Positions 14,166-59,439 of a stretch of 64,000 bases of DNA are shown here, piece after piece. The notes below the pieces were generated by a model, which was not told the origin of the DNA, ran no database searches, and saw nothing but the letters and a program-made list of their open reading frames with translations. Position numbers and translations under genes: made by a program. Position 1 is the first letter of the stretch; each line of letters opens with the position of its first letter. Source of the stretch: Lepas anatifera (Eukaryota > Arthropoda > Thecostraca > Lepadidae); the NCBI GenBank assembly GCA_034440635.1, contig JAOTON010001266.1, positions 434,001 to 498,000 on the forward strand, written 5' to 3'.

Positions 14166-14533
14166 TCATTCGATTCCGTCAGTGAGACTGCCGCCCTGCT
14201 CCTGAGCCGCCCGCAGCATCCCGGCGTAGATGCCGTCCTTTTTGGCGGCCAGCTGGGCGGGGGAGCCCTGCTCGGCCACCCTACCCTCGTGCAGCACCAG
14301 CACCAGGTCGCACCGTCGCACCGTCGACAGCTGGTGCGCGATGGTGATGACGGTGCTGCTGGCAAAGGCCCGCGACACGATGTCGGTGACGCTGCGCTCG
14401 GTGGCGCCGTCCAGCGCGCTGGTCGGCTCGTCCATCACCACCACCCGCGCCTCCCGCAGCAGGGCGCGCGCCAAACAGAACAGCTGGCGCTGCCCCACGC
14501 TGAAGTTGTCGCCGCCCTCCTGCACCTCCGACT
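14166..14533 (-). CDS. Sur: SUR-like exon a26 (NBD2 end and stop codon)
   Basis: 368 nt, phase 1 in, residues 1702-1823 and TGA at 14168-14166. [41 protein letters not shown] and [16 protein letters not shown]. The acceptor is ttctcggcag. The tail GGSLTDGIE is short, as in SUR proteins, whose C-terminal variants affect channel behaviour in vertebrates. Confidence 0.96.
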
Positions 14534-29500: not shown

Positions 29501-32500
29501 ATCCGAGCGAGCTGAAACCCGGACTGGGGCTCTCAGCAAAAAGAGAAACCGTGTCAGGTAGCTAGTGCCTGATCAAAATCATTTCCTACCGGGCCGAACT
29601 ATCCGAGCGAGCAGAAACCCACACTGGGGCTCTCAGCGAAAAGAGAAACCGTGTCAGGTAGCTAGTGCCTGATCAAACTCATTTCCTATCGGGCCGAACT
29701 ATCCGAGCGAGCTGAAACCTGGAGTGGGGTTCTCAGAGAATGGAAGAAAAAGTGTCAAGTAAAGCGGGCGGAGCTGTGACCGGCCACTCACATTGCAAAA
29801 ACCCGGTAGAACTTCTACGAGAAACGGTAGGTAGATAGGATGACGACCGGGGTACTAAGATGAGTAAAGCTGGGAGCGGCCACTCACATTGCAAAAACGC
29901 GGTAGAACTTCTACGAGAAACGGTAGATAGATAGGATGAAGACCGGGGTAAAGATGAGTAAAGCTGGGACCGGCCACTCACATTGCGAAGGCGCGGTAGA
30001 ACTTCTGCAGGAAGTAGTAGATAGCCAGGATAACGGCTGCGATGAGGATGAACCACCATGTGACCACGGCGTTAACGATGATGGCGGTGACACATTGCAG
30101 GACAAAGTAGAGCAGTAGATGGATGGCCGTTGCCAGTTTCTGAGCGCATCACAAGAGAAGTGCACGTCAGCCCATCACTTTCAGAACGGTCATAGCCGAT
30201 GACAATGTGGCACACTGTCGGAACACATATGGAACGCTGATTGGGCGACACGAGTTAGGAAGGTGATGATATTGGAAAACTAATCTGAATTGGTTATGGT
30301 CTTCCCCGCGACCAGGTAGACGAACGACCATGACTCATTTTGTTGTAAGTAAGGACATAAAGATGCACAAAGAGGGAATTAATCGACAATTTCACTTCCT
30401 GATAATTAATCAATAAGATTCGTCCAGTTGAATGCGCGCCATTTGCTTCGGCTCTGGCCTCCGCAGTGGTAGCGCACTCCCCAGCCGCCTCCACAGGCCT
30501 CACCTTGTCGATGAAGCTGATGTCGCGGGAGAACCTGTCGATGATCCTGCCGGCCGGGGTGCGATCGAAGAACTCCATCCTGCCGCGGGTGACTGCTGCC
30601 AGCAGGCGGTGCTGGAGGCGAGTGCGGGCACGCGCGCCAGCCCACTGGCCGCTGAGGTTGGCCACCAGGGCCAGTACCACGGCGGCTGCTGCCAGGCCGC
30701 CGTACACCAGCAAGTAGCGGCGCGTCTGGCCGGCCACGAAGCGCTCGTAGGCGGTGGTGACGTTCTCGGGCAGGACGGCGGAGCGAGCCAGCTGCGACTC
30801 GAGGAAGAGGGACCACTGCTGCTGGTGCGTGAGGTTCCACTGGCTAGCCGCGTCACTCCACACGCTCAGCCAGTAGTCCATGCCCACATGCGCCCCTGTG
30901 GCACAGGGACGGGTCACAGACAGGACGCACGCTGTGTATTTACCGATGCCAACCTCAGATGAGAAATCTCCAACTGTACATCTCGGGAGACTCAAGTAGA
31001 GTAACAAGTGTCCAGGCTAAACGCTTCCAATGAACAAACTGAACGACAAAGACGTTACTCCCAATGATAGGACGCGCACTGAAGGTAAATGAGTGACCTA
31101 TAGGACATCCGCGTTTACAAATGTATACAGTGCATGCCTAGAATGTAGACATTTCTCACCCTGGGTGCACAACACCATAATGATGTATAGAAGGCCGTAG
31201 GCCATGCCGCAGGCCTGGAGGTAGGTGAAGTAGAGTCGTTTGGAGAGTTTGCCCGTTTCTCGATCCTCTATGGAGAATCTTCGCCCGTCCACATCACTCG
31301 AGGATGTCAACATTGCCGCCACGCCTGTGCAAGGTGGAACCGAAGGCTATTCAGGTGCTCTGGTGTGCGCAGTAAGCCTCAAAAATATCACGGTTACCAC
31401 CTTATCTACCAGGTGATTTATCGACTGAAATTTGACTGATGATGAAAGCCACGTGCTAAAAACAAAGTCTAGCCACAGACGCTACAGCGTTTGTAGATAT
31501 ATCTACAAAGGTACTATTTAACGGGCAAAAGAAGGAACGAATATCTACACTTCCCTCCCGAGGAAATAAACAGGCAGCCTTTTAATCACCAGGGAAATCA
31601 GCGTGTGCGACTGGACAATTTCGGGGGCGAATGACAGCAGGTCTTACCCTCCTCTTCCTCGTTGATTTGGGCGTCGTAATTGGAGGCTATGGACACAGCG
31701 CGCGCTACTGAAGGTCGCTTGGGCGGGGGCGGCAGCGGGGGCGACTCGGTCATGAGAGGCGTCGCCTGATCCAAGGAGGTCTCTCTCACGTCCTCCGTAG
31801 ACGGAGTGTGGCGAGTGGTGGTATTTCTGTGGGACAGATGATCGAACTTCAGGGAGGGAAGGAGAGAGAAAGAGAGGGGGAAACAGAAAAAAGAGACTGG
31901 GATAGCGAGCATTCAACAGTCATTTTTCCTGTTGGTTAGCCTCGTTACTGGGGTGCTTAACAGCGACGTCGTCATTTTCTTCAGTAAATATAATAAAAGG
32001 TGTCCTCTCAGCCCCTACTCCTTCATCCACCGTACAGCTGATTCCCTACACCCAGCCAATGGAGGTCAGCTCCAACTCACATCAGCACCAGAGAGCTCCC
32101 TACCTTCGCATGATCTTGTGTATGATGGACAAGTTGCTGCCGCGCTGGATGGGGGACGGCATGTTGGGCGGCGAGGACATCATCCGTGACAGTGCCAGCC
32201 GCTCCTTCTTCTTCTTCTCCTCCTCGTCCTCAGGTGTGGCCGGCGTGAGAGGTGTGGCGGGTCGCAGCGAACTGGAGCGGCCGTAGGACAGGTGACGCCG
32301 CGCTGTCTCAGCAATGCTGGCCAGCCGCGCCCGCGGCGACACTGTCCTCCGGTCTGGGGACGGCGTGGCAGGGTCACACAGAGACACTGTCCTCCGGTCT
32401 GGGGACGGCGTGGCAGGGTCAAACAGAGACACTGTCCTCCGGTCTGGGGACGGCGCAGCAGGGTCAAACAGAGACACTGTCCTCCGGTCTGGGGACGACG

Positions 32501-35500
32501 CGACAGGGTCAAACAGAGACACTGTCCTCCGGTCTGGGGACGACGCGGCAGGGTCACACAGAGACACTGTCCTCCGGTCTGGGGACGGCGCAGCAGGGTC
32601 ACACAGAGACACTGTCCTCCGGTCTGGGGACGGCGCAGCAGGGTCACACAGAGACACTGTCCTCCGGTCTGGGGACGGCGCAGCAGGGTCACACAGAGAC
32701 ACTGTCCTCCGGTCTGGGGACGGCGCAGCAGGGTCACATAAAGGTCCCCACAGCAAATTGAAAGATTATCTTATGTTTCCTATGTGAGTAAGATGCAATT
32801 TAAACGTGAAGCATCAACTTTTTCACTCACGCCATCTACTTCCACCCAAACACAAAACTAAGAAAATGCCAATACCCCGCACACCATCCAATACCTAGAT
32901 TTCGCATGTTTCAAACGCACACTTAGTCGCTCTTCTAAAAAAGGCACATAAAATACTCCAACTTGTCAAGACTTGAAGGTAAATTCAGAGGCATCCCACA
33001 CAGATCCCAGTGCTGAGCACGCCTCTGCGAGGTCACTAACCTGTGGTGGTCCAGCGGCGTTGCGGCGCCACCATCATGTTGCCGCCGCCGGCTGCCGCCA
33101 GGCTGAGCGGCGCCCCGTGCGACAGGTGATGCCGCAGGGACGCCTGGCGGCGGATGGCGTTCGACCGGAACGAGGAGAACTTGTCCCGGCTCAGACCCAG
33201 CCCTGGCTGGAGGCGCAGATGGGAGGTCAGAGCGGACGGGGTTCAAGGTAAGGGTGATTGTTTCAGGGTCCGAGGGATCAGTACAGAGTCTGAGCCGTCA
33301 GTTCGGGGTCAGCCGTCAGATCAGGGTTAGAGCCGTCAGTGCAGGGTTAAAACCGTCAGTTCGAGGTCAGCAGTCAGTTCAGGGTCAGCCGTCAGTTCAG
33401 GTCCAGCCGTCAGTTCAGGGTCAGCCGTCAGTTCAGAGTCAGCCGTCAGTTCAGAGTCAGCCGTCAGTTCAGGTCCGGCCGTCAGTTCAGGGTCAGCCGT
33501 CAGTTCAGGGTCAGCTGTCAGTTTAGGGTCAGCCGTCAGTTTAGGGTTAGAGCCGTCAGTTCAGGGTCAGCCGTCAGTTCAGGGTCAGAATATTTAGTGC
33601 AGGGTCAGCCGTCAGTTCAGGGTCAGAATATTTAGTGCAGGGCCAAGAACAGTCAAAACTGATTGGAAGCATTTGATGGAGTCAGAGTGGCTAGAGCAGG
33701 TTCAGAGTGGTCAGTGCAGGGTCAGAGTGGTCAGTGCAGGGTCAGAGCGGTCCATAGACGTTGGAGTGTGGAAGTGGTGGTGAGTGCGAAAGATTCAGAG
33801 GAGGATTCTGGGCTCTGGAGAAGGTGCAAATGACGGGACCAGCTAGATAGGTGGATATGAGAGAGGCGGCGATGTTAGTGAAGCTCGCAACAGGTCACAG
33901 AGTTCACAGAGGTCACGTACAGAGCACTCCACAGGGCAGCTCTCTGGCAGCTCAATACAAAACATCTTACCAAAGAAATTGACTGATTCTCATACTTTAC
34001 AAACCTATTATCACATTACCATCCACCAATGTTCTGCACGGCACGTTCCCATTACTCGTCCACTGCCTTGGCGGACGCAGGGGGGGACATTCCGGCCATT
34101 CCCCCCAAAGCGCTGGTGGAGGGAAACTATCTTTTGGCCCCCCTAAAGGCCGGAGAATTTTTGAAAAAGGTGTTTACACTAGGTCTGCAGAACAAAAACA
34201 TATTCGCCCCCCCAGGAGGAGAGGCAGACATGGGTTTGCCCCCTCCCCCAAACCCGGGTCTGCGTCCGCCCCTGGTCCAATGTGATTGACCTCACCAGCG
34301 CTCCGGACTTCTGTCGTATCCTGAGCAGCCTCCACCGTTCCTTGGCTGTTTTACTCTCGGTTTCGGCCAGCTGGGTCTCCAGGTCCCGGTCCTGTCGAAT
34401 GAGCTGCTGCCAGCCCCCGTACAGCTCTGGATCGGCCGCCTTGATGTCGGCCAGGCTGCCCTGTTGCCTGATCCTACCTCGCTCCAGCGCGATCACCTGG
34501 AAAATTGGGCTCTGTCTGAGATCTGGGGCTGCTAGCATGGTCGACAGCAACTGTTACTGATGCTTCCTGTTAAATTATCAGGATGTTGCTGAGTTAGTTA
34601 TTTGGGTTTTACGGTTCAATAACCATTAGGTTATGTGGCGTCCATACGATTGTTTTTTGCAAAAGAGGAGCATGTGAGGACTTAGCAAAAACACCTTGGT
34701 CAAACACTGTTAGCTCGCAAAAAACGCACAGTGGTAAGAAAACGGGACCATTAAGACAGTAAACTTAAACCGTATTCCAATGTACATATTACTGGCCAGT
34801 AAAGTGTCATGCTTCCATGGTATCTGGTGGTATAAAGAGCTGGAGTGCAGGCGCTGGAGCCGGTCTCACCAGGTCCGCCTGCTCCAGATACTGCAGTTTG
34901 TGCGTGACCAGGATGACCGTCCTGTTCTCCTTCTGCAGCAGCTTGCGGATGCCGTTGTTGAACACGTGGGAGCCCACGTGGACGTCCAGTGCAGAGAGAG
35001 GATCGTCCTGATGGACGGGGAAAAGAAGAATTTAGTGGACATTACCTACGATGGGTGATATGCTTTACCCGTTGTCTGCACATACCTTCTTTGGATGCAT
35101 ACTAACTAACTTCTCGAAGCGTGCAACACATGTATGGGCTTGTACATAGACCTACATGCATATGTATATTATTTACTGTCTACGCTACTGTGCTGGAGTA
35201 ACATGCAATTATCTTTACCAATGATTTGAAAATCGTAGAAAGCATTATAAACTTGGTACATTCAAGTTCGGTTTACAAGTAGCCTATCTAGGCTACCGAT
35301 ATATCGAACAGGCTTGACTAGAAACTATGTGAACAAGGGGAATAGGTACAGACTGGCTACAAGTGTGGGACGATTATGGGAACATACAGCTGTGCCTCAC
35401 CAGTATAACAACATCAGCGTTGGAGTAGAGCGCTCGAGCCACGGCCACCCTCTGGCGCTGTCCGCCGGAGAGCACGATGCCCTGCTCTCCGATCAGCTCG

Positions 35501-44500: not shown

Positions 44501-45725
44501 ACAACCTGTCCCGCCACACACACCAGCAGCTGTGTGCAGCAGCTGTGTGCACACACCAGCAGCAGCTGCATGTGCCACTGGTTGGCACACACACCAACCA
44601 GTGGCACATGCAGTGCCACCAGAATCTGTCGCGCCACACACACCAGACAGTGTCACATGCAGTGCCAAGATAATCTGTACCACCACACACAACAACACAG
44701 TGGCAGGACTGATTACAGTGTCACACAAAGTGCCATCACAACCTGCCCCGCCAGACGACAACCAGCCATCGTCACATACAGTGCCATCACAACCTGTCCC
44801 GCCAGACGACAACCAGCCATCGTCACATACAGTGCCATCACAACCTGTCCCGCCAGACGACAACCAGCCATCGTCACATACAGTGCCATCACAACCTGTC
44901 CCGCCAGACGACAACCAGCCATCGTCACATACAGTGCCATCACAACCTGTCCCGCCAGACGACAACCAGCCATCGTCACATACATTGTCATCACAACCTG
45001 TCCCGCCAGACGACAACCAGCCATCGTCACAAACAGTGCCATCACAACCTGTCACACCACACAACCAGCCATCGTCACATGCCTGGTGCACAGCAAGCTG
45101 TCCAAACTATAAGAAAATAAAACTGAAAAATTCACACAGCTCTTTGTTAATTATAGTATAAAAACAAAGCCAAAATACTCGAGTAAGCTAGCTTTTTCAG
45201 ACTTTGAACACCTCCGACATAGGATCTAAGACTACCATCTCAAACATCCCTTTCTAATTAGCAGGGGCGCCGCCACGTAATTTATACAGGGAGGGACGGA
45301 CCCGGGATGGTGCTGACCGGGGGAGGCGAATTTTGACAATATCCCCCTTGTTGGCCAACAGGGGGGAGCGGACGCGTCCCCCGTCCCGCCCCCCGCTTTC
45401 GGCGCCCATGCTAATTAGTTGTCTGTAACAGCAGTAGCATACACTAATTCCTTCTTATGATAATACCATACGCTTCGACACAGACAAAAATGGGAGGGAC
45501 GGTCAATCTCGAACCTCCTGCTGGCCAGAAACTCACCCCACCACCTAGAAAAAACTTAACGGGTTCTGGCTCCATGCTACCTTCCTAGCATACCGGTTAC
45601 AACATATTCCTATAATTTTCTAATTTGGCTGGAATCGAGCAATTTTTCCATAAACAGTGGAGACTGACCTCACTCTTTTCCAACGCGCAAATAATAATAA
45701 TAAGTTTCAACGCGTTAAATACGTG

Positions 45726-45813
<88 letters not shown>

Positions 45814-48800: not shown

Positions 48801-50628
48801 ATCAAATATGCGTCTAAAATTTGTATTGTAGGTATTGCCTGTGTTGGCACCGTTCAGAAGCCGGCAGTCATCCGGGTTGACAGATGGCTCTAGGCTTTGA
48901 CTTTGATAAAGACACTACGAATCGCAGATTGGCTGGCATCAAGTTCAGCAGCTATGTCGGTGAATCACGAAGCTCGTGCTCCCCGAAAATACGTCACGGG
49001 AGGCATTAGGCGCGATAGAACAATACGATGGCCACAGAACAGTCACTACATGTTTGGTGACATCATCGAGATGATAAGAAATTTGCTCATTATCCGTGGA
49101 GTTAAAAAGTGTATCAATGCTTTCCTTTTAAAAGCATACGAGTAATGACTTCCCATATTTCCGTGCGAATGAGACTCAGCCGGCTTCTACTGCCCGGAGT
49201 GTTGCACAAATCACGTCTTCTGGCTACCGATTTCCTCCACTTTCACTTATAAAAGCTGGAAGCCTGCCGAGCGACTGGAAGTGTCTGTGCTGGAAACATA
49301 CAGAATGTCTGAGCTGGAGACGCACCAAGCGGCTGTACAGCACGTTTCCAGCGACTGGTGCGTGTGTGCTGGAAGCCTTACGAGCGACTGTTGAGAGTGA
49401 GTGCAGGGCGCCTCAGCTGGGAACCATACCGAGCGACTGGAAGTGTCCGAGCTGGAAACATACAGAACCTCTGCGCTGGAAACCTACCCAGCGACTGGAA
49501 GTGTCTGGCTGGAAACATACAGAACGTCGGCGCTGGAAACCTCGCGCGGTGTCCGTGTAATCGAAGCGACTGGAAGTGTCCGTGCTGGAAACATACGGAA
49601 CGTCTGCGCTAGAAACCTACCGAGCGACTGCAGGGTGTCGGTGCTGCCGCCTGGTGTCGCCTCCATAGCCGTCAGCGGTATCCGCAGCGACTTGTCGTAA
49701 ACTAGTGCCTGCCGCCGAAAAAACCGGTCGGCCCTCCACACGCAGGGAAACTGCACCTAGAGATGCATATCCACGCTACTGCGTGATGCTGGAATACCAG
49801 AAGTTCAGTTTCTGAACAAAACATGTTCTGAAATTTTTATATCCTCAAATGATCTCCCGCCTAAAAAAAACGACGCGAGGATTTGTTTTAATGACTAGAC
49901 AAAGAGCGTTGATAAACCAATGACAAGAGATAAGCCAACACGCAGCGCTCAAAAGATACGCATCTCTTGTCCTGCGAACATTTTACACTGAGCAAGCAGT
50001 AACTGAGCAGCTACAAAAAAACACGAGTGAAACATCTTATATACCTACCTGATTGTGTCCTCTCCGTTTAGATTTCCATATATGCCCGTATGATCATTTC
50101 GCGTTGATTTACATTAAAAATGTACTCAAGCAGAAGTTGTGCTGGCGTAAATAAAGTTAGAGGATGATATAAATAATAGTATTGAGGAATGCTGTTTGTT
50201 TCATCTTCTCCGATCCCACTTGAAAACGAATCCTATTTTTGGCTATACATTACGGCACAGGCCATACGCAGATCCAGGATTGCCGACCGGGGGCACCTTC
50301 CCGGGGGGCGCCATCCGGACCAGGGGGCGCCACTTGACCGGCAAAATCTATAAGGTGGGCGCCAAATCCTATCGGTGGGCGCCGATTTTCGCATCCTGGA
50401 GGGGGTGGGGAGCGAAATTTGGGCGCCATCGACCTTTTAGGGGGCGCCGTGACCATTTCAAGGGGCGCCGAGGGTCGATCGGGGGGCACGTGCCCCCTTG
50501 CCCACCCCTGGATCCGCCTATGGCACAGGCCCAGTCTGGAAGCACGATATTAGAGGAGGTGGGCACTATATCACTCTATCACACTATATAGCACTATATC
50601 ACACGACGGCAATATCACACACATATAT

Positions 50629-50698
<70 letters not shown>

Positions 50699-53600
50699 CA
50701 TATATGCACGACGGTAGTATTATAGACGACCGAGGTTTCAGCACTCAGCCGCAGGCCGCTGTCATAAGGCTAGAAAGCTTTAATCTGTTGTTCCAGCCAT
50801 AAACTCCGCCACAGGCAAAGAAGTGAGGAAACCCATCAATCTCGAGGCTAGAAACTGACCCCTTTCAGCACCAAAAACTAATCGAAATCGGGCTCATTGT
50901 TGTCTTCCACGCATGCTGGCTGTCTAGTTTTCTGATTTCTTCCCGATTTGAATGAAATCGAGAAGCTTTCGGATGAAAAGAGGGGACCGGGCTCACATGA
51001 CCTCCATATCCCGGTGAGAAGGCATGGCCCCAGCGGTGTACCTTTCAACTTGGAATCTGCATGTCCGGTGGTCGCGGCGTTTTTTTTATGTAAATCCAGG
51101 GCCGTGGGCCGTTTTTAAAGCTCCTGGGTAACTCGCAAGCCTTTGCACACTCGTGCAGCACGTGGCCTCTGGATTTTGAACGAACTGCGAAGGTCTGCAC
51201 GGGAGCGTGGAGGCCCCATTCCTTTATGTTCTGCATTGTTCTGTTGCAAAAACTACCGTGCACCACCTTCCGCGGACAATAACGCTTCAACGAGATGATT
51301 GAACCATGTCCGGTTTTAACAAATTACTTCTTTGTCAACCTGAAGCCGTCACAAAAACAACACTTTTTGTCGTACTAAGACAAATAACCGACCGAAAATT
51401 GACGTGACCATACGGTTGGTGTTGGCTGGGACTATTCCTGGCACAGCTGATATAGGATAACAATGTGTGAGTTCCTCACATTTCGGAATCGACACCGTCA
51501 TTACGTTCGCTGATAAGCCCACAAAAAGCGCGGCCAGCGAATCTAATGGCGGCGCTGTTCCACATCGGTATCGGGTGCGTTCCGGTTTTTTACCCGCTGC
51601 TTTCTCACCAGTGAGGTTTTTCTGTTTGTCTTCGTGCCGGCTACCCCGTCCGTTTCCCCGTGTACTTTTTACATGAGTCATACGCGATCTGGCACAAGCA
51701 TGACCTCTTGAGTCACCGGAAATTGGTGGTATTTCGGCCCGCTCCCGGCTGCGCCCATTCCATCCGTACACTTCCACACGCCCACTAAGACCCACTCTAT
51801 CAGCTGCATCCTTCGACTCACTTCCGCTGGCTCTATCTGAAGACGGGGGCGACTATGAACACGTGAATAAGTCCCGTGTTATGCTTCTGAATAATCAGCA
51901 AGCTCGAATGAGTCGCACACATGCCTATTGCTTAAAACAAACAGGGCGGTTACATCACTATGGTTTATCTGTCCAAATCTAACAAAGCGGAGCAATGACG
52001 CGCTGTAAGGAAGGGATCATGTATGTACGTACCTAACACAGGAAAACAAATAGCCTTGCCATTCTAGCCACAAAACCCGTACACAAAGTCAGCGACAACA
52101 GCCCGTTCATTTGGCTATGAGAATGTTCCGCTTGGTCACGTCTTTACCGACGGGCTGTGTTCAGCCTCGTCGGAAACTGACCTGCACCTCACTGCGCAGG
52201 CGCAGACCCTCGGTGACCATCACGTGGGTGCCGCACTGGGAGAAGGTGCCCTGCGCCAGCGCTGCCACCAGCGCCACCACTGACATCACGTACCCGTTGG
52301 AGAGGAAGTCGCCCACCGTCGGATACAGGTACTGTCAGAGTGTCAGCCAAAGGCAGGTTAGTTCTAGCGCCAGAAAGTAAGCAACTTCTGAATTGAAATC
52401 AATGAGTAGTTGCATGACAGGACAAGTGACCTTTCCTATTTATTTTAGTTCGGGACACAAATGCTTTATATTTCCACCTTTTGTTTCTGTGAGCCATTAC
52501 CTAAATGTGGGTACGACACCGGGGTGACTCAATGAATGTTCCAATTTGACGGCTATGGCAATCCCATCTTTTCCACAGACAGGCACAATATCCTAACGAC
52601 ACCTCCGTTCTGTGTCACCTTAGAAAACACCTCCCAGGGCAGACCATTTAAAACCAATCGTAACATTCCTCCATCAAGCCATAAACCACGCCCCTGACTG
52701 AAGGCATCCGATGCCCTAATGGAAGTGATACCGCAGAACAGTGACAGTACCCCGAGAAAGTGCCGCATCCATTGGTTCAATAGGTCTAGCGGGCAGAGCG
52801 TGACAGACCAGGAGCGTCTAAATAGATTGCCGTCTCTGCGTCACATTGTGCGGTTTGCTCACTGTCGTGAGGTCACCCCGCTTTCTCCTGTCGGCCTTCT
52901 ATCGGGCCCTGAATAGCAATCGCATCAGCTGGGAGTGTGTGCTTGTCCCTTTGGAATCTTCTGGCCAGGTCATGTGTGCTGGTACACACCTGGATAATGC
53001 CAACTAAATGGAGCACTCATGTGCAGACATTACAAACGCTCACAGAAAACACCTGATCACGATACCAAGTGGTGATTCTCTAGTCCCAGTGATGGCCTGA
53101 AAGCTCTTATCATCTCAAATAGAAAGGCAGCCATATCTTTATTTCGTTCACATTACGATTCATCATCATATTTCGAATTTTCGGGCGCATCAACAGCCCA
53201 GGTCATATGGCATCCTGACTCAAAGCAGAGCGCATTGTCCATGAATTACACGCCCAGAAAGCAAGGAATTCTGCTGATGCGAAACTCAGCCCAATGCATT
53301 TGTTAGCTGTGAGTATACACTAGCTAGAAGGAGCTGGGTGTGGGCACACGAAGTGTCTACGTCATGTTTACACGTGACCTGGACTATCTGAGTACAGCGG
53401 GCAGCACTGACCCCTCCTTGCTGCAGATGCAGCAGCTCAAGTTGTCCCGACTGATGCAACAAGACGAATTCGATAATGTTCTTGAGAGCTAGTGGGGCCA
53501 CGAAGCCGACCGAGTCTCCAAACAGCTTCAGAAGCCCGCCCAGCAGCAGGCGGCCGCGGTGAGCTCGCCACACCACCCGCCACAGTCGCAGCCGGCGACC

Positions 53601-56580
53601 GGTGGCGGAGCACCGCGCCTGGGACAGGGGTGGGTCAGTGGGGGTCACACACAACCACACCACCATCCACAGTTATCAGTGACGGAGCACCGCGCCTGGG
53701 ACAGGGCTGGGTCAGTGGGGGTCACACACAATCACACCACCCACCACAGCCTCCAGTGACGGAGCACCGCGCCTGGGACAGGGCTGGGGTCAGTGGGGGT
53801 CACACAAAACCGTACCCACCACAGCCTCCGCAGTGGCGGAGCACCGCGCCTGGAACAGGGCTGGGATCAGTGGGGGTCACACACAACCGCACCCACCACA
53901 GCCTCCAGTGGCGGAGCACCGCGCCTGGAAAAGGGCTGGGTCAGTGGGGGTCACACACAATCACACCACCATCCACAGTTATCAGTGACGGAGCACCGCG
54001 CCTGGAACAGGGGTGGGTCAGTGGGGGTCACACACAATCACACCACCATCCACAGTTACCAGTGGCGGAGCACCGCGCCTGGGACAGGGGTGGGGTCAGT
54101 GGGGGTCACACACAACCGCACCCACCACAGCCTCCGGTGGCGGAGCACCGCGCCTGGGACAGGGGTGGGTCAGTGGGGGTCACACACAATCACACCACCA
54201 TCCACAGTTACCAGTGGATGAGCATCGCGCCTGGGACAGGGGTGGGGTCACTGGGGGTCACACACAATCACACCACCATCCACAGTTACCAGTGGCGGAG
54301 CACCGCGCCTGGGACAGGGTTGAGTCAGTGGGGGTCACACACAATCACACCACCATCCACAGTTACCAGTGGCGGATCACCGCGCCTGGGACAGGGCTGG
54401 GTCAGTGGGGGTCACACACAACCACACCACCCTCCACCACAGCCTCCAGTGGTGGAGCACCGCGCCTTGGGACAGGGGTGGGTCAGTGGGGGTCACACAC
54501 AACCGCACCACCATCCACAGTTACTAGTGGATGAGCACCGCGCCTGGGACAGGGGTGGGGTCAGTGGAGGTCACACACAACCGCACCCACCACAGCCTCC
54601 AGTGGCGGAGCACCGCGCCTGGGACAGGGGTGGGTCAGTGGGGGTCACACACAACCGCACCCACCACAGCCTGCAGTGGCGGAGCACCGCGCCTGGGACA
54701 GGGGTGGGGTCAGTGGAGGTCACACACAATCACACCACCATCCACAGTTACCAGTGGATGAGCACCGCGCCTGGGACAGGGGTGGGGTCACTGGGGGTCA
54801 CACACAACCACACCACCCTCCACCACAGTCTCCAGTGGTGGAGCACCGCGCCTGGAACAGGGGTGCGGTCAGTGGAGGTCATGCTTACACGCAGTACTAA
54901 ACATGACCCCACAAATGATATTGATCATTCAGTGATACTAGTTACAACAGAATCATGATAAGATGACGACATGCCGCAGTATGCATGTCAGAACATAACA
55001 CATTTCGACTAAACTGGAGATCACACTAAATAACGCATATGAAAGGCGAGACAGTAAACGACCAGAAATTCGCTTACCTTTTCTCTTTTCAGCACTTTGT
55101 TGAACTTCTCGAAGTGCGTCTGAGTGTCTTGTCCCGGGGGCAGGCTGAGGAGAGACAGCGAGGTTAGAACAAACAATACACTACAAATGATTGTTACCGA
55201 GCGGGCGCGAAGAGTTCGTGAGGTCTCCATATACATAGGCGGATCCAGGGGGCAAGGGGAGCACGTGCCCCCCCGATCGACCCTCGGCGCCCTCCTGAAA
55301 GGTCGATGGCGCCCCCTGAAATGTCGCTTCCCACCCCCCCCAGGATGCGAAAGTCGGCGCCCACCGATAGGACTTGGCGCCCACCTAATAGGTTTTGCCG
55401 GTCATAAGTGGCGCCCCCTGGTCCGGATGGCGCCCCCCCGGGAAGGTGCCTCCTCCCATCGGCAATCCTGGATCCGCCTATGTCCATATACATGGAAAGT
55501 CTTGACATGTGAGCGATACGACCCATCCCATCCCAATCGTCACGCTAATGAGAAACCTATATCTCACAAAGTATGCATCAGACCTTAACGGGGTTTCATA
55601 ATCTTATAACCAGATCAATCAAACATTTAGTGTGCAGGGAGCACTGATTCAATGAGGTAAATGGTATAGAATCAACTCCTGGTTTGGAACCCACCTCAAG
55701 CCAAACTAGTGTTTGACTTCTGATCAATTGGAAATGACGTGTCCGTAAGTGGAGGCAGTTTTAAGCGTTTTGTCCGTTCGGAAGGTACTTTTAGAATATG
55801 CAAGAGATTCCTCTCAAAAGCAAGAAACAGCTAAAGGCACTGCCTGCACCGAGCGACTTTTTTCCTCCAAAATTATATCACCCAGTACTAACTCGCAATA
55901 GAAATGTACGGTGATCACGCGTATGGTAAAAATATGATTTCAGTGCTCGCTCTGGCCGCAGATTTGTCACAGCAGCCAAACAAGGCTCCATTATTGTCAT
56001 TATAAGTTCATCACATGTGAAGACCTGAGTACGTTTATGGCAAAAAAAGAAGAAAATTAACATCGAATCTGGTCCACACCCAAAGTATCCCCGCAAGTTT
56101 ATTCAGTCTTCTCTCGCGGCATAACTATCAATCACAATCTGGCTGACAGCCGACAAATACGACAGATCAACAAAAATTGACTCCCAATCCATATCCAGAT
56201 GGAAACCAACAAATTTTCTGGCCAAGCCAATCCAAATCGATGGCGTTCTCTATTGAACAAAGCGGCTTGCTACAATGAGTTCACATAAACAGAGGCCATT
56301 TGCACATTGATTGCACAAGGTTGTAGCTTAAATATAGATACTGAGACAGTTTAAATCCGGATACAATCACTCATAGGGACAAACTCATACAGCAATTGCC
56401 CTACCTGCCAAGGTCCTCGAAGCCGATCGGCCGCTTGAAGCCGATCCAGAGCAGGTCAGTGACCCAGGAGAAGGTCACCTTCTGCCTGGCACTGGCGTAG
56501 GGGTGTCGGTACCGAATCTGTTCCATGTCGACGTGATAGAAACTCTCTGGACTGTACTTCGAACGTGAACATAGGTACCC
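14166..56580 (-). CDS. Sur: SUR-like ABCC transporter (26 exons, N-terminus missing)
   Basis: The spliced coding sequence gives 1823 residues plus stop, every junction in phase. Order: end of the L0 linker (exons a1-a2), TMD1 (a3-a10), a long acidic linker, NBD1 (a11-a14), a long Ser/Pro linker (a15-a18), TMD2 (a18-a22) and NBD2 (a23-a26). NBD1 shows Walker A GGVGSGKS (730-737), Q-loop Q767, LSGGQ (822-826), ILDDP with Asp at the catalytic position (847) and H881. NBD2 shows GRSGSGKST (1609-1617), Q1657, a degenerate FSVGQ (1712-1716), catalytic E1737 and H1768. Stretches such as [27 protein letters not shown] and [18 protein letters not shown] follow SUR1/SUR2 closely. In that family the protein is a plasma-membrane KATP-channel subunit that senses nucleotides rather than pumping. 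Another long ABCC paralogue is possible; ABCC membership is secure. The promoter and TMD0 are not in the mapped part. Confidence 0.88.
14534..16540 (-). other. Intron a25/a26, distal part
   Basis: No exon or RNA gene is seen. A start-like hAT family A motif (AGCGGATCCAGGA, near 15561) without a matching right end is probably a relic. Short direct repeats of GATATAGCCTAGAT lie near 15810 and 15868. Confidence 0.5.
16549..16844. mobile_element. hAT-type MITE (family C), 296 bp
   Basis: Termini are CATTGGCGGACGCAG and CTGCGTCCGCCTCTG, inverted with 13 of 15 matches. A perfect 8-bp target duplication gccatatc flanks it (16541-16548 and 16845-16852). An internal direct repeat, ACACTAGGTCTGTAGAGCA, occurs twice. 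There is no coding capacity. A shorter relative is at 34066-34274. Confidence 0.93.
17205..17486 (-). mobile_element. SINE copy, 5'-truncated (family S1)
   Basis: The reverse complement matches 37484-37765 along its length (GGCCCGCTGCTCAGAAGCATGC, CCGACGTACAGGTCGGCT, GGGACGTTAAACTTTGG, ending near GACTCCAGCAG). It lacks the tRNA-like head found in that copy. Confidence 0.88.
17785..17830 (-). mobile_element. tRNA-like SINE head fragment
   Basis: The reverse complement reads GCGTAGCTCAGTTGGTAGAG followed by CGTTGGGCTTAGGCCCGCC. Box A, TAGCTCAGTTGG, is perfect (17811-17822). No box B is seen at the right distance, so this is a fragment, not a functional tRNA. Confidence 0.6.
17870..19425 (-). 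other. Intron a25/a26, middle part
   Basis: Mostly featureless. Near 18809 the motif GGGCCCCATTTCATAAAA resembles a common MITE terminus; a related inverted end occurs near 24510. Neither could be paired. Confidence 0.4.
19430..19880. mobile_element. TTAA-flanked MITE, family P, 451 bp
   Basis: Perfect inverted termini AGGGAATGTGGCACCTT and AAGGTGCCACATTCCCT, each flanked by TTAA (19426-19429 and 19881-19884). This fits piggyBac-type insertion. A near full-length copy in opposite orientation lies at 58778-59226. Non-coding. Confidence 0.9.
19885..25311 (-). other. Intron a25/a26, proximal part (5.4 kb)
   Basis: No conserved exon is seen. The stretch 23410-23600 is a GC-rich island in AT-rich intron. 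The stretch 24355-24490 has three loose repeats of TACGCTGCATT. Nothing further is supported. Confidence 0.45.
25312..25415 (-). CDS. Sur: SUR-like exon a25 (NBD2)
   Basis: 104 nt, phase 2 in, 1 out, residues 1667-1702. [20 protein letters not shown] and [14 protein letters not shown] match SUR [24 protein letters not shown]. It is followed by a 10.8-kb intron. Confidence 0.93.
25416..25824 (-). other. Intron a24/a25
   Basis: A 409-bp GT-AG intron with no features seen. Confidence 0.7.
25825..26012 (-). CDS. Sur: SUR-like exon a24 (NBD2 Walker A to Q-loop)
   Basis: 188 nt, phase 0 in, 2 out, residues 1605-1667. [14 protein letters not shown], then [20 protein letters not shown] and [12 protein letters not shown]. 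The KLPL.TLRS run is typical of SUR NBD2. Confidence 0.95.
26235..26415 (+). mobile_element. tRNA-derived SINE (family S2)
   Basis: Perfect internal promoter: box A TAGCCTAGTGG (26242-26252) and box B GGTTCAATCCC (26295-26305), 42 bp apart. A non-tRNA body follows (CCGTGTCCGATCTGACCCGG ... TGTGCCTGTTGGGAGTGGCC). Only this copy was noticed in the window. Confidence 0.75.
26416..27010 (-). other. Intron a23/a24, remainder
   Basis: AT-rich, no features seen. Confidence 0.5.
27011..27201 (-). CDS. Sur: SUR-like exon a23 (start of NBD2)
   Basis: 191 nt, phase 1 in, 0 out, residues 1541-1604. [20 protein letters not shown], then an insertion rich in Ser, Asn and Thr, then [16 protein letters not shown], matching SUR NWPDQGKIQIQNLSVRY and PVLKHVNALIAPGQK. 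Donor AAG|GTTCGG is weak but required by the frame. Confidence 0.92.
27202..28072 (-). other. Intron a22/a23
   Basis: An 871-bp GT-AG intron with nothing recognised. Confidence 0.6.
28073..28313 (-). CDS. Sur: SUR-like exon a22 (TMD2, last helices)
   Basis: 241 nt, phase 0 in, 1 out, residues 1461-1541. It contains [54 protein letters not shown] and KTEHYR, matching SUR [23 protein letters not shown]...AVKRIHGLLKTE. Donor is TTG|GTGAGT. Confidence 0.94.
28391..28480 (+). mobile_element. SINE family S3, 5'-truncated copy
   Basis: It starts inside box B (CAAGTCCCGGCGG) and matches the body of the copy at 57980-58125: AAAATCCCTTCCAACAGGGT and GAGTTGGCGACGCCGTATGA. Confidence 0.85.
28686..28881 (-). 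CDS. Sur: SUR-like exon a21 (TMD2)
   Basis: 196 nt, phase 2 in, 0 out, residues 1395-1460. [20 protein letters not shown] and [11 protein letters not shown] match SUR [20 protein letters not shown]...TIRAFRYEARF; then RWLGIAL. The GA-rich run upstream supplies the polypyrimidine tract. Confidence 0.95.
28882..29460 (-). other. Intron a20/a21, proximal part
   Basis: It starts with a GA/GGGA-rich run (about 28886-28922) that is the polypyrimidine tract of the a21 acceptor on the minus strand. The rest is featureless. Confidence 0.6.
29461..29745. repeat. Tandem repeat, ~100-bp unit, 3 copies
   Basis: Units share CATTTCCTACCGGGC (29480, 29580, 29680), CGAACTATCCGAGCGAGC and GAAACCGTGTCAGGTAGCTA. 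High identity suggests recent duplication. It directly adjoins the exon-a20 donor duplications. Confidence 0.92.
29776..29981 (-). repeat. Two partial duplications of the exon a20 end and donor
   Basis: Units of about 95 bp repeat the last ~50 nt of exon a20, the donor (GCAAT|GTGAGTGG) and ~45 bp of intron. Copy donors fall at 29887/29886 and 29791/29790. The exon-like part keeps AAGTTCTACCGCG but carries an in-frame TAG (TTC TCG TAG AAG), so the copies are pseudo-exon fragments. Confidence 0.9.
29982..30139 (-). CDS. Sur: SUR-like exon a20 (TMD2 helices)
   Basis: 158 nt, phase 0 in, 2 out, residues 1343-1395. Two hydrophobic helices, then [13 protein letters not shown], matching SUR CYFIQKYFRVAS. 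Donor is GCAAT|GTGAGTGG. Two decayed copies of the last ~50 exon bases plus donor follow in the intron. Confidence 0.92.
30140..30503 (-). other. Intron a19/a20
   Basis: A 364-bp GT-AG intron with no features seen. Confidence 0.6.
30504..30895 (-). CDS. Sur: SUR-like exon a19 (TMD2)
   Basis: 392 nt, phase 1 in, 0 out, residues 1212-1342. [12 protein letters not shown] matches SUR AIDYWLAKWTDS. An extracellular loop follows with sequons NLT and NVT, then helix [20 protein letters not shown] and [19 protein letters not shown] with FIDK. Confidence 0.95.
31160..31324 (-). CDS. Sur: SUR-like exon a18 (start of TMD2)
   Basis: 165 nt, phase 1/1, residues 1157-1212. It contains a canonical RRFS site, the elbow [18 protein letters not shown] and the first TMD2 helix [12 protein letters not shown], matching the SUR segment CAKYLSSAGILLLSLLVF. 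Confidence 0.9.
31325..31647 (-). other. Intron a17/a18
   Basis: A 323-bp GT-AG intron with no features seen. Confidence 0.6.
31648..31826 (-). CDS. Sur: SUR-like exon a17 (linker)
   Basis: 179 nt, phase 2 in, 1 out, residues 1097-1157. Polar sequence with [17 protein letters not shown] and a terminal NEEEEG. Acidic runs in the same linker occur in SUR1. Donor is GAGG|GTAAGA. Confidence 0.8.
32104..32353 (-). CDS. Sur: SUR-like exon a16 (linker with minisatellite at its acceptor)
   Basis: 250 nt, phase 1 in, 2 out, residues 1014-1097. It starts [16 protein letters not shown] and continues through a Pro/Thr segment and [12 protein letters not shown] to SIIHKIMR. The acceptor ccgtccccag|ACCGG is the last of nine identical-type acceptors in the 45-nt array immediately upstream. 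All units are open in this exon's frame, so the exon could be longer in 15-residue steps. Confidence 0.75.
32341..32745 (-). repeat. 45-nt minisatellite, 9 units, each with the exon a16 acceptor
   Basis: Units start at 32341 and recur every 45 bp to 32701. On the minus strand each reads ...GCGCCGTCCCCAG|ACCGGAGGACAGTGTC..., a polypyrimidine-AG acceptor followed by the first bases of exon a16. Translated in the exon frame each unit is [15 protein letters not shown], with no stops in any copy. Divergence is a few substitutions per unit (GCA/GTG/GAC codons, CAC/AAC). Confidence 0.95.
33041..33206 (-). CDS. Sur: SUR-like exon a15 (inter-domain linker)
   Basis: 166 nt, phase 0 in, 1 out, residues 959-1014. 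It is basic and Ser-rich: [20 protein letters not shown], then a Gly/Ala-rich part. RRQAS is a possible basophilic kinase site. There is no clear vertebrate counterpart, but it has good splice sites and phase on both sides. Confidence 0.8.
33260..33660. repeat. 18-bp minisatellite (GTCAGCCGTCAGTTCAGG)
   Basis: About 18-20 degenerate units upstream of the a15 acceptor, trailing into GTCAGAGTGGTCAGTGCAGG units to about 33750. The related string GGTCAGAGCGG lies inside the pyrimidine tract of the a15 acceptor (33225-33235), but the acceptor AG itself is not repeated. Confidence 0.92.
34066..34274. mobile_element. hAT-type MITE (family C), 209 bp, next to exon a14 donor
   Basis: Termini CCTTGGCGGACGCAG and CTGCGTCCGCCCCTG. 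Flanking octamers gtccactg (34058-34065) and gtccaatg (34275-34282) match at 7 of 8. It is collinear with 16549-16844 but lacks about 90 bp internally. The right target duplication ends 13 bp from the a14 donor. Confidence 0.9.
34296..34496 (-). CDS. Sur: SUR-like exon a14 (end of NBD1)
   Basis: 201 nt, phase 0/0, residues 892-958. [19 protein letters not shown] and [12 protein letters not shown] match SUR IIAMKDGTIQREGTLKDF...WKTLMNRQDQELE, a SUR-distinctive stretch. The donor lies only 20 bp from a hAT MITE. Confidence 0.93.
34497..34869 (-). other. Intron a13/a14
   Basis: A 373-bp GT-AG intron with no features seen. Confidence 0.6.
34870..35007 (-). CDS. Sur: SUR-like exon a13 (NBD1 D-loop and H-loop)
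   Basis: 138 nt, phase 0/0, residues 846-891. [18 protein letters not shown] and [16 protein letters not shown] complete NBD1. The residue after the Walker B Asp is Asp rather than catalytic Glu, as is usual in ABCC NBD1. Confidence 0.95.
35008..35400 (-). other. Intron a12/a13
   Basis: A 393-bp GT-AG intron with no features seen. Confidence 0.6.
35401..35662 (-). CDS. Sur: SUR-like exon a12 (NBD1 Q-loop to signature)
   Basis: 262 nt, phase 2 in, 0 out, residues 758-845. It contains [38 protein letters not shown] and the signature [16 protein letters not shown], almost collinear with SUR NBD1. It ends in Walker B ADVVIL. Confidence 0.95.
35663..35951 (-). other. GC-AG intron between a11 and a12
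   Basis: The donor reads CCAG|GCAAGT (35952|35951), a full match to U1 pairing except the C at +2. The acceptor is caccaccag|GGG. Frame and SUR alignment ([14 protein letters not shown]) require this boundary. Confidence 0.88.
35952..36724 (-). CDS. Sur: SUR-like exon a11 (acidic linker and start of NBD1)
   Basis: The largest exon, 773 nt, phase 0 in, 2 out, residues 501-758. The first ~190 residues are low-complexity Ser/Asp/Glu/Pro sequence, far longer than the vertebrate SUR linker here. Then come [25 protein letters not shown] and Walker [10 protein letters not shown]. It ends at GCCAG|GCAAGT, a GC donor; no GT near this point preserves the frame into a12. Confidence 0.92.
37143..37438. 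repeat. Long inverted repeat (~69-bp arms, ~158-bp spacer)
   Basis: The left arm (37143-37211, GGCGCGAGGTGATGCCTTGC ... CCACTCTG) is nearly the exact reverse complement of the right arm (37370-37438, CAGAGTGG ... GCAAGGCATCACCTCGCGCC). No target duplication was found. It may be a fold-back MITE. A SINE starts about 8 bp beyond the right arm. Confidence 0.9.
37446..37770 (+). mobile_element. tRNA-derived SINE (family S1), full-length copy
   Basis: The head GCCGCCCCGGTAGCTCAGTT carries box A TAGCTCAGTTGG (37455-37466) and a diverged box B (GGATCGGTCCC, about 37529-37539). The body is shared with the truncated copy at 17205-17486 in opposite orientation. The internal hairpin CCGACGTACAGGTCGG is shared by both. 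Confidence 0.85.
37856..38485. mobile_element. hAT-type MITE (family A), interrupted by a second MITE
   Basis: Termini CATACGCGGATCCAGG and CCTGGATCCGCCTATG. Flanking octamers cgatctta (37848-37855) and cgatcata (38486-38493) match at 7 of 8. Without the nested element and duplicated target it would be about 270 bp, like the copies at 50263 and 55234. Confidence 0.93.
38035..38386. mobile_element. hAT-type MITE (family B) nested inside family A
   Basis: It starts CAGTGGCGGATCTAGC and is flanked by a perfect 8-bp duplication gccatcga (38027-38034 and 38387-38394), which is family A sequence. The right terminus is eroded (CCCCTGATCTG instead of CTGGATCCGCCACTG). Similar to 40292-40673. Confidence 0.93.
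38494..39516 (-). other. Intron a10/a11, unannotated part
   Basis: No features beyond a short palindromic AGCTATATAGCTATATAGCT near 38989. Confidence 0.5.
39521..39655. mobile_element. TTAA-MITE family P, 3'-truncated
   Basis: TTAA (39517-39520), then AGGGAATGTGGCACC and sub-terminal TTTTGAACTGATATGGCCA, as in the other copies. It loses similarity near 39655. Confidence 0.75.
40292..40673. mobile_element. hAT-type MITE (family B), 382 bp
   Basis: Termini CAGTGGCGGATCTAGC and CTGGATCCGCCACTG. Octamers gtatgggt (40284-40291) and gtataggt (40674-40681) match at 7 of 8. The interior shares GGCAAACCAAAGTCGAAAA and GAAGTTGAGAGTT with the nested copy. Confidence 0.93.
41143..41951. mobile_element. 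TTAA-flanked DNA element, family Q, 809 bp
   Basis: Inverted termini AGGGAGATACGCGAAAAAA with TTATT, and the complement at the right end, both flanked by TTAA (41139-41142 and 41952-41955). The AGGGA start recalls family P. The interior has a minus-strand open frame of about 70 codons, without a recognisable transposase domain. Confidence 0.88.
42078..42215 (-). CDS. Sur: SUR-like exon a10
   Basis: 138 nt, phase 0/0, residues 455-500. [17 protein letters not shown] matches SUR VSVQKLSEFLSSAEI, the helix leaving TMD1. The rest is polar linker. Donor is CTG|GTGAGG. Confidence 0.88.
42216..42613 (-). other. Intron a9/a10
   Basis: A 398-bp GT-AG intron with no features seen. Confidence 0.6.
42614..42792 (-). 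CDS. Sur: SUR-like exon a9 (end of TMD1)
   Basis: 179 nt, phase 1 in, 0 out, residues 395-454. It contains helices [13 protein letters not shown] and [20 protein letters not shown] and ends AIIDAR, matching SUR LFHILVTPLFLLSSV...VKAL. Donor is CGG|GTCAGC. Confidence 0.92.
42793..43766 (-). other. Intron a8/a9
   Basis: A 974-bp GT-AG intron. A loose repeat of TGAGAAATCAGCA(G/C)ATACGG occurs near 43280 and 43384; otherwise featureless. Confidence 0.5.
43767..43929 (-). CDS. Sur: SUR-like exon a8 (coupling-helix region)
   Basis: 163 nt, phase 0 in, 1 out, residues 341-395. It contains [20 protein letters not shown] and KLNALEF, the conserved ABCC cytoplasmic loop (SUR: [22 protein letters not shown]). 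Donor is A|GTACGT. Confidence 0.92.
43930..44318 (-). other. Intron a7/a8
   Basis: A 389-bp GT-AG intron, pyrimidine-rich near 44270-44300 on the plus strand; otherwise nothing. Confidence 0.6.
44319..44456 (-). CDS. Sur: SUR-like exon a7 (TMD1 helix)
   Basis: 138 nt, phase 0/0, residues 295-340. It encodes [13 protein letters not shown], then [14 protein letters not shown], then QLQSNKK, matching SUR IIVGVILLYYILG...LLAPVQYF. The acceptor gcggacag|ATTGTGGTG resembles the unit junction of the upstream minisatellite, gcgggacag|GTTGTGATG. Confidence 0.9.
44457..45075 (-). repeat. 51-nt minisatellite carrying the exon a7 acceptor junction
   Basis: Six to seven regular 51-nt units (about 44730-45065) each contain, on the minus strand, GGCGGGACAG|GTTGTGATG, resembling the true a7 boundary gggcggacag|ATTGTGGTG. 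Between array and exon (44465-44720) lie more diverged units, rich in CACACACCAG. Units are multiples of three; each encodes [17 protein letters not shown] in the exon's phase, but a stop near 44713 separates the array from the exon. Confidence 0.9.
45262..45410. mobile_element. hAT-type MITE (family E), 149 bp
   Basis: Termini CAGGGGCGCC and GGCGCCCATG, with a perfect 8-bp duplication ctaattag (45254-45261 and 45411-45418). The interior is G-rich on one side and C-rich on the other. Confidence 0.9.
45728..45812. repeat. (TA)n microsatellite
   Basis: A pure TA run of about 84 bp in intron a6/a7. Confidence 0.98.
46035..46290. repeat. ~26-bp minisatellite (TGGCGCTGATAGGCCC)
   Basis: About nine degenerate units of CCTGGCGCTGATAGGCCCCT in intron a6/a7. 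There is no link to a splice junction. Confidence 0.9.
46925..47130. repeat. ~31-bp minisatellite (GGCAAGCTCACGGGCTGGAC)
   Basis: About six degenerate units in intron a6/a7. There is no link to a splice junction. Confidence 0.85.
47131..48270 (-). other. Intron a6/a7, unannotated part
   Basis: No features seen. Confidence 0.5.
48275..48562. repeat. 30-bp minisatellite just inside the a6 donor
   Basis: About eight units of GCCTCAGACACCGGTGGTAC plus GCTATGGCAC. On the minus strand the array begins about 15 bp after the exon a6 donor. The donor itself is not part of the unit. Confidence 0.92.
48577..48770 (-). CDS. Sur: SUR-like exon a6
   Basis: 194 nt, phase 1 in, 0 out, residues 230-294. 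The second half ([16 protein letters not shown]...YTWAIPLK) aligns with SUR CNLVAIDTNQLM...LWAMPVQ. The first ~35 residues are an insertion relative to vertebrate SUR. An alternative acceptor six bases downstream (exon start 48764) keeps the same phase. Donor is AAG|GTAAGT. Confidence 0.82.
49255..49640 (-). repeat. Minisatellite carrying the exon a5 donor
   Basis: Degenerate units of about 35-75 bp share GAGCGACTGGAAGTGTC and GCTGGAAAC(A/C)TAC. On the minus strand the shared core is CAGTCGCTCGGTAGGTTTCC, spanning the a5 exon end and donor (TCGCTCG|GTAGGTTTC). Copies carry GT (CTCG|GTATGG; CTCGTAAGG) or GC (CTCG|GCAGGC) at the equivalent place. Confidence 0.85.
49621..49708 (-). CDS. Sur: SUR-like exon a5
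   Basis: 88 nt, phase 0 in, 1 out, residues 201-230. [12 protein letters not shown] corresponds to the cytoplasmic loop IYNKIMHLS of SUR. The donor CTCG|GTAGGTTTC also forms part of the repeat unit of the adjoining minisatellite, so downstream copies present additional donor-like sites. Confidence 0.8.
50263..50522. mobile_element. hAT-type MITE (family A), 260 bp
   Basis: Termini CATACGCAGATCCAGG and CCTGGATCCGCCTATG, with a perfect 8-bp duplication gcacaggc (50255-50262 and 50523-50530). The interior has the repeated GGGCGCC blocks typical of the family. Non-coding. Confidence 0.96.
50638..50697. repeat. (TA)n microsatellite
   Basis: About 58 bp of TA, preceded by ACACA/TATAC-rich sequence, in intron a4/a5. 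Confidence 0.97.
50698..52181 (-). other. Intron a4/a5, unannotated part
   Basis: No exon is seen. An open frame near 51350-51795 on the minus strand has no recognisable domain and no support. Confidence 0.5.
52182..52331 (-). CDS. Sur: SUR-like exon a4
   Basis: 150 nt, phase 0/0, residues 151-200. It encodes a TMD1 helix ([20 protein letters not shown]) and ends GLRLRSEVQ, equivalent to SUR GINLRGAIQ. Acceptor is ctgacag and donor CAG|GTCAGT. Confidence 0.9.
52332..53411 (-). other. Intron a3/a4
   Basis: A 1080-bp GT-AG intron with no features seen. Confidence 0.6.
53412..53618 (-). CDS. Sur: SUR-like exon a3 (first TMD1 helix)
   Basis: 207 nt, phase 0/0, residues 82-150. It contains [20 protein letters not shown] and [15 protein letters not shown], aligned to the SUR helix ending LLGFAGPL. 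The acceptor reads cctgtcccag|GCGCGG. The acceptor and first ~18 exon bases are the last unit of the minisatellite that fills the preceding intron. Donor is GGG|GTCAGT. Confidence 0.9.
53600..54885 (-). repeat. ~65-90-bp minisatellite, ~17 units, each with the exon a3 acceptor
   Basis: On the minus strand every unit contains CCTGT(C/T)CCAGGCGCGGTGCT, the same string that spans the true a3 acceptor (cccag|GCGCGGTGCT at 53619/53618), plus CCGCCAC matching exon bases 11-18. Unit lengths vary with the number of CCACC/CACAC blocks. It fills nearly all of the intron a2/a3. A long plus-strand open frame across it is an artefact of the repeat. Confidence 0.95.
55078..55144 (-). CDS. Sur: SUR-like exon a2
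   Basis: 67 nt, phase 2 in, phase 0 out, residues 59-81. It encodes [20 protein letters not shown], matching the SUR segment 'GKLP...F' just before TMD1. Donor is AAG|GTAAGC and acceptor CTCTCCTCAG. Confidence 0.88.
55234..55482. mobile_element. hAT-type MITE (family A), 249 bp, inverted orientation
   Basis: It starts CATAGGCGGATCCAGG and ends CCTGGATCCGCCTATG, with a perfect 8-bp duplication tccatata (55226-55233 and 55483-55490). The interior is the reverse complement of the 50263 copy. Confidence 0.96.
55491..56404 (-). other. Intron a1/a2, remainder
   Basis: No features seen. Confidence 0.5.
56405..56580 (-). CDS. Sur: SUR-like exon a1 (L0 linker)
   Basis: 176 nt, phase 0 in, phase 2 out. 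The acceptor is TTCTATTCCAG at 56581-56591 and the donor GTAG begins at 56404. It encodes residues 1-59: [10 protein letters not shown]..., then the amphipathic L0 signature [15 protein letters not shown] and [10 protein letters not shown], equivalent to SUR L0 before TMD1. It enters in phase with no Met, so earlier exons must exist. Confidence 0.88.
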
Positions 56581-59226: not shown

Positions 59227-59439
59227 TTAACTCAAGAGCTTCCGTGATCTGGTAAAAAGGTTGGCCCCCAGATAGATCTACTGTTGGCGCAGCTACACTT
59301 ACCCCAGATACATGAGCAGCTTAGCCTTCGCCCGGGAGGGGGGTTTTCAGACCCCCTCTAGGTTTTTCCAGTGACCAAAAACGGCGGCGCGCAGTGCCAC
59401 CAAACTTAGTCTAACTGTTCCTTTATCATTTTTATATCT

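Follow-up and report, generated by a model that had tools for sequence, protein, structure and literature searches.

Five exon edges of the sulfonylurea receptor gene Sur of the barnacle Lepas anatifera carry tandem repeats whose units contain the splice site together with adjoining exon bases. These arrays are very probably (with a rough probability of 0.85) minisatellites of the mirage type, which arose by independent tandem duplication across exon edges, with the exon-proximal copy being favoured in splicing and the extra copies being mostly silent decoys. Direct observations in Sur are the anatomy of the arrays, the independence of their units, the AG or GT present in 36 of 38 extra copies and the effect that each copy would have on the reading frame. 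The interpretation given in an initial annotation, which had described the arrays as separate local duplications and considered a duplication bias at junctions, is as a whole partly supported.

The Sur gene and its exon model

The window, i.e. the whole stretch of 64,000 nucleotides that was analysed, contains on its minus strand a barnacle-type sulfonylurea receptor gene of the ABCC8/9 family, as recognized by a protein search and by open reading frames.

56580..14166 (plus-strand coordinates), minus strand: Sur gene, exons a1 to a26, from open coding sequence and homology

With the main exons as query, the top two protein matches are both from barnacles, namely the Sur protein of Amphibalanus amphitrite (61.1% identity across 1739 aligned residues) and an ABCC8-like protein of Pollicipes pollicipes (61.6% identity across 1517 aligned residues), and the lower matches among the best 120 of 2298 are mostly Sur, ABCC8 or ABCC9 proteins from other animals. 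A scan of the Amphibalanus protein against NCBIfam gave general ABC transporter families alone among the best 25 of 191 matches, the best two of which fall under the family cut-offs. Exon placement was guided by the Amphibalanus protein and the reading frames, and the basis of the model is homology and open frames; the N-terminal exons of Sur were searched for within the 64-kb window and not found there. In the 26-exon model, the joined coding sequence has no internal stop and a single terminal stop, and the 25 introns are GT-AG throughout, save for a GC-AG intron after a11. The donor of that intron (window 35952..35951) reads CAG/GCAAGT, with GC in place of GT, and open frame and homology both back the GC-AG assignment.

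Junction-spanning repeats at five exon edges

All 51 edges of the model (26 acceptors and 25 donors) were examined, using 25 exon and 25 intron bases of each edge as the query and seeking local copies up to 1500 bases away. Junction-spanning copies are present at five edges, which are the acceptors of a3, a7 and a16 and the donors of a5 and a20, and the remaining 46 are without any copy at equal score. After dinucleotide shuffling of the flanks, with 20 trials for each edge and the best match alone considered, a spanning copy turned up in 0 of 1020 trials. The splice-junction arrays in Sur are thus confirmed. The initial annotation had counted five of 25 junctions; the five are borne out, and the denominator needs correction, as 25 introns correspond to 51 edges and the rate is 5/51. 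The span that it had assigned to the arrays, 29776..54885, is 4 bp off the outer tandem-repeat rows at both ends.

53598..54881, minus strand: a3 acceptor array, 16 extra copies; exon 53618..53412
44456..45080, minus strand: a7 acceptor array, 8 extra copies; exon 44456..44319
32338..32738, minus strand: a16 acceptor array, 8 extra copies; exon 32353..32104
49267..49640, minus strand: a5 donor array, degenerate, 4 extra copies; exon 49708..49621
29772..30006, minus strand: a20 donor array, 2 extra copies; exon 30139..29982

These copy numbers agree with those first proposed for a3 (about 17 units, found as 16 extra copies plus the true site), a16 (nine units, found as eight extra copies plus the true site), a20 (two extra copies) and a5 (several degenerate units, found as four degenerate extra copies); at a7 the array itself stands, and the original count of 6-7 units was slightly low. 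The unit lengths given by the repeat finder are 45, 51, 57, 77 and 96 bp. The exon part that could be aligned comprises about 17-21 bases at a3, 9-19 at a7, 16 at a16, 10-25 at a5 and about 60 at a20. Splice sites were scored with a small matrix built from Sur's own sites, which in the case of acceptors means the gene's 23 other acceptors.

The acceptor arrays

The copies in the a3 array are spaced 74-81 bp apart, mostly 77, and each consists of a branch-point-like CTGAC or similar motif, a C-rich tract, an AG that is intact in all 16 copies, and the exon bases. On the gene's own acceptor matrix, nine of the 16 copies score at least 10, and no site of that score exists elsewhere across the 33 kb of Sur intron outside arrays. 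Counting the true site, the a3 array holds 13.2 acceptor-like sites per kb with a score of at least 8, compared to 0.75 per kb in the intron sequence beyond the arrays. This density, together with the AG or GT kept in 36 of 38 extra copies, upholds the original description of decoy-like sites flanking the true one. According to the reading frame, splicing to any of the 16 a3 decoys would run into a stop after 2-19 codons. Each a3 decoy acceptor is followed at a distance of 19-38 bases by a donor-like GT (best scores 4.1-6.3), which would in principle allow splicing of an a3 unit as a very small exon. On the plus strand, which is the gene's template strand, 10 of 11 G-quadruplex motifs are inside the a3 array (53598-54881).

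Between-unit matches in the a3 array amount to 87%, and the tandem-repeat score peaks at a three-unit period of 229 bp. The AG is invariant, yet 43% of the a3 columns are invariant as well. When the units were cut, the likeness was 0.92 in the splice core, 0.95 in the exon part and 0.84 in the rest, six end-trimmed columns aside. The test with full units did not confirm this higher likeness of core and exon part: the splice core ranks 42nd of 84 circular placements, and the core together with the exon part ranks 31st of 84. The splice core thus ranks as for neutral copies, and a selection on the a3 decoy sites, which was considered, has no sign in this rank or in the share of invariant columns.

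The a16 array differs in its coding outcome. Its copies are 45 bp apart with 97% between-unit matches, the AG is intact in all eight, and all eight preserve the frame and meet no stop up to the end of the exon, so that each unit, if used, would add 15 residues; the array might in principle yield longer proteins. At a7, six copies follow at intervals of 51 bp and two nearer ones are irregular. AG is kept in 8/8, and all eight copies outscore the true acceptor (2.9-4.5 versus 1.5); decoy use would shift the frame by 1 in every case and reach a stop in six of them. The true a7 acceptor (44456) has a weak, purine-rich tract, its score of 1.5 is the lowest among the 26 acceptors, and its position is fixed by homology. 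By eye, the inner units look homogenised and the edge units diverged in both a7 and a16, and the pattern at a3 is indistinct.

The donor arrays

The degenerate copies of the a5 donor, at 49487, 49429, 49380 and 49267, are irregularly spaced, with a repeat-finder unit of 57 bp. GT is kept in two of the four, one has GC and one has lost the site, and the copy at 49487 scores 5.8 versus 3.5 for the true donor. If used, the nearest copy would leave the frame open but shifted, and the other three would reach stops. The two a20 copies, at spacings of 94 and 96 bp, both have an intact GTGAGT, and read-through beyond the true a20 donor would meet an immediate stop. By reading frame, decoy use would thus result in truncated or frame-shifted products at four of the five arrays, a16 being the exception.

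Independence of the units

All eleven tandem arrays in Sur were compared pairwise (55 pairs) against shuffled units. At p < 0.02, no similarity emerged in any of the ten pairings of the five junction units, in line with the earlier statement that the units are unrelated. Two of the 55 pairs were flagged at this threshold, one being the arrays at 33293 and 33681, which are in one intron, and the other a weak match of a16 with 33681 (p 0.015) that is about what chance gives over 55 comparisons. As the junction units are unrelated, the five arrays are best seen as separate events, which is what had been proposed for them as local duplications across exon edges, and a single repeat spreading between introns is ruled out. 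Introner-type elements are defined by related sequence common to different introns, a feature that the five unrelated junction units lack, and dispersed intron elements of this type were rejected as well.

Known counterparts of the Sur arrays

The initial annotation knew of no named class for such arrays, but minisatellite-like tandem duplications of exon/intron boundaries have been described in amphioxus as mirages (PMC3087553, PMC3902484), a name given by Canestro et al. 2002, as cited in PMC3087553, and human ABCA7 and CBS contain further counterparts. The amphioxus genes described with mirages are Adh3, the globins BflGb6 and BflGb9, TnC (troponin C) and PGBD5 (PMC3087553, PMC3902484). Their units are 10-160 bp long, can be at the 5' or the 3' boundary, and many, not all, keep AG or GT (PMC3087553), and according to the descriptions regular splicing is apparently undisturbed (PMC3087553, PMC3902484). 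The Sur arrays share the unit length, the spanning of the boundary with inclusion of exon bases, the occurrence at both kinds of edges, the unrelated units and the partial retention of AG or GT (for the amphioxus side see PMC3087553). They differ in that the mirages belong to a cephalochordate and the Sur arrays to a barnacle, with five arrays in one gene and up to 16 extra copies, and in that length instability and regular splicing are reported for the former, whereas the latter are known from a single sequence. It is thus with the mirages that the Sur arrays belong, and the possible novelty lies in the number of five in one gene and in the arthropod host; a literature search limited to open-licence papers found no arthropod mirage record.

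In intron 18 of human ABCA7, a 25-bp repeat includes the splice donor of the exon, one unit is retained in about 2% of transcripts, and a longer repeat goes along with more skipping of the next exon (PMC5954066). Like Sur, ABCA7 is an ABC transporter gene with an exon-adjacent repeat holding a splice donor, but it has one array, in which GT forms the first bases of the unit and which is polymorphic and disease-linked as the source describes it (PMC5954066), whereas Sur has five arrays at both edge types with exon bases inside the units. Human CBS likewise has tandem duplications that take in the edge of an exon and its splice site, at two loci of the one gene (PMC2630376). Where the intron 7/exon 8 junction is duplicated by 68 bp, the "more distal" site is strongly favoured, the upstream copy is removed and normal mRNA results, with the source wording the sites as donor sites (PMC2630376). 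A 31-bp unit of CBS holds 24 exon bases by our own reading of its coordinates (PMC2630376). In comparison with Sur, CBS has fewer loci, and these are polymorphic in humans (PMC2630376). Internal tandem repeats at exon-intron boundaries have also been described in human segmental duplications, with novel introns being proposed to form from them (PMC2812944); like the Sur arrays they may create new splice choices, but they are variable and inside exons of recent gene copies, as opposed to decoy arrays in old introns. Intronic minisatellites of earthworms apparently have no junction within the unit, as far as their description goes (PMC12783039).

Origin and splicing of the arrays

The most plausible course of events is that at each of the five edges a short segment across the junction underwent tandem duplication, independently each time, and that the copy number was then probably raised by slippage or unequal exchange. 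Such a duplication would leave one intact edge beside the exon, and the protein would be unharmed if that copy is the one used; the exon-proximal copy would be kept intact via selection on the protein. The spliceosome may mainly use this copy because it is the one to which the real exon is attached (exon definition), and the extra copies would then be intronic decoys, mostly silent and probably near neutral, with occasional leakage. As the products of four arrays would be truncated or shifted if their decoys were used, we infer that the exon-proximal copy is the one predominantly spliced. Counter-points are the decoys that outscore the true site on the simple matrix at a7 (8/8) and a5 (1/4), and the behaviour of the human ABCA7 repeat makes leakage and length effects real possibilities. 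The mirage reading would be compatible with an additional junction bias or with a function of individual arrays.

Possible junction bias and alternative readings

With intron and other control positions sampled at every 10th base, local copies were found at 438 of 3578 intron positions (12.2%), at 5 of 51 junctions (9.8%), at 59 of 2118 positions outside the gene (2.8%) and at only 3 of 414 exon-interior positions (0.7%); within a GC range of 0.50-0.75, the intron value is 384/1386 (27.7%). Copies are thus common in intron and at junctions and nearly absent in exons, which is the pattern of tolerated duplication, and the repeat rate per position is no higher at junctions than in intron. This comparison can be considered unfair to junctions, because an expanded array covers many intron positions and one junction. 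In a founder model, each array was therefore cut to one founder unit that was randomly placed on the collapsed gene, leaving out dinucleotide rows and overlapping duplicate rows and merging the rows of one array. Five of 11 arrays cross junctions, compared to 0.61 expected for uniform placement (P 0.00011) and 1.47 for GC-matched placement, with founders within 0.05 of the array's GC (P 0.007). Over the GC-matched variants (five repeat-score thresholds, a looser overlap rule, removal of a5), 1.05-1.87 crossings are expected and P is 0.0033-0.026; four arrays cross at the highest threshold and without a5, and adding the small row 55286-55326 (score 68) changes little. The suggested duplication bias is favoured by the founder model and gains nothing from the comparison per position. 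Crossing beyond the neutral founder expectation, even when GC-matched, hints at an extra bias, but since the gene was picked from a scan for looking odd, the P values are taken as a hint, and for this single gene the bias is suggestive and short of proof. That tandem duplication in this genome truly concentrates at junctions, for instance through more frequent slippage or breakage of C-rich or GC-rich splice regions, is conceivable though rather unlikely: it would agree with the founder results and their stability over the variants, and with the G-quadruplex motifs at 10 places in the a3 acceptor tract on the template strand, but the evidence comes from one gene chosen for its striking look, and repeats are not richer at junctions per position. 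The plus-strand motifs are, moreover, confined to the a3 array or to 36308 and therefore cannot serve the other four arrays; with three motifs on the coding strand, G-quadruplexes were discarded as a common cause, and they could help the a3 array grow.

Some arrays might serve to tune Sur by providing several alternative splice sites, with a16 isoforms carrying 0 to 8 inserts of 15 residues and a3 giving truncated messages that lower expression. The AG kept by all a16 copies, in frame and open, and by all a3 copies, with early stops, would fit such a use, as would the ABCA7 repeat, whose unit retention and length-dependent skipping are reported in PMC5954066. It is nevertheless improbable, as the splice core of the a3 copies has no special conservation, an open GC-rich unit of 45 bp easily occurs by chance, and two predicted barnacle proteins contain, by eye, no such repeat peptide. 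In the Rogers model, introns are gained by tandem genomic duplication, that is, by a local duplication involving splice signals. The Sur arrays resemble this process in the local duplication with splice signals, and one could take the Sur introns themselves as born by tandem duplication of exon sequence, with the arrays as remnants. This is very hard to uphold, as the signature of such a gain, matching intron ends, is absent: donor and acceptor regions, or exon edges and the opposite intron end, are alike in 0/25 introns at the score used. The idea has precedents, since mirages were put forward as possible seeds of new introns in the amphioxus work (PMC3087553), and boundary tandem repeats in human were proposed to form novel introns (PMC2812944). 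An assembly artefact is just as improbable a source of the arrays; identity between some units of a16 and of a7 along the stretch compared leaves room for a miscounted copy number, but there are five arrays with distinct units, with internal differences (matches of 87% in a3 and 97% in a16) and with intact exons attached.

It would be a bold extension of the mirage reading, and one that is not to be expected, that exon edges in barnacles are preferred for tandem duplication, that mirages are common genome-wide and that some of them, notably a16, act as ladders of splice sites. If this were true, the a16 array would give rise to a graded family of Sur proteins carrying from zero up to eight 15-residue inserts in the region that links the first nucleotide-binding domain to the second membrane domain. 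Mirages, if common in barnacles, would make it possible to examine in a natural setting how the spliceosome chooses among near-identical sites, whether exon edges are prone to duplication, and whether repeats seed new introns and exons.

Other repeats in the window

Two further intronic minisatellites lie close to junctions or junction arrays.

48271..48560, no strand assigned: intronic minisatellite behind a6, separated from the exon by 16 intron bases, junction excluded
29469..29740, no strand assigned: intronic minisatellite with a 100 bp unit, adjoining the a20 array and crossing no junction

A disguised mirage at the a6 donor (48577/48576) was considered and dismissed, as there is no spanning copy. 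Related 18-bp and 20-bp minisatellites at 33293-33752 of the window start 87 bp upstream of the a15 acceptor and do not cross it. Dispersed repeats are present as well. A repeat of about 460 bp occurs at 19426-19884 and 58774-59230 on opposite strands with 92% identity, and a third copy at 8877-9232 has about 73% identity. A second dispersed family, perhaps transposon-like, is found in Sur introns at 37855-38485, 50260-50522, 55234-55485 and 40292-40620, with 73-94% identity, and a pair of repeats of about 324 bp at 17162-17485 and 37476-37798 is 90% identical in opposite orientation.
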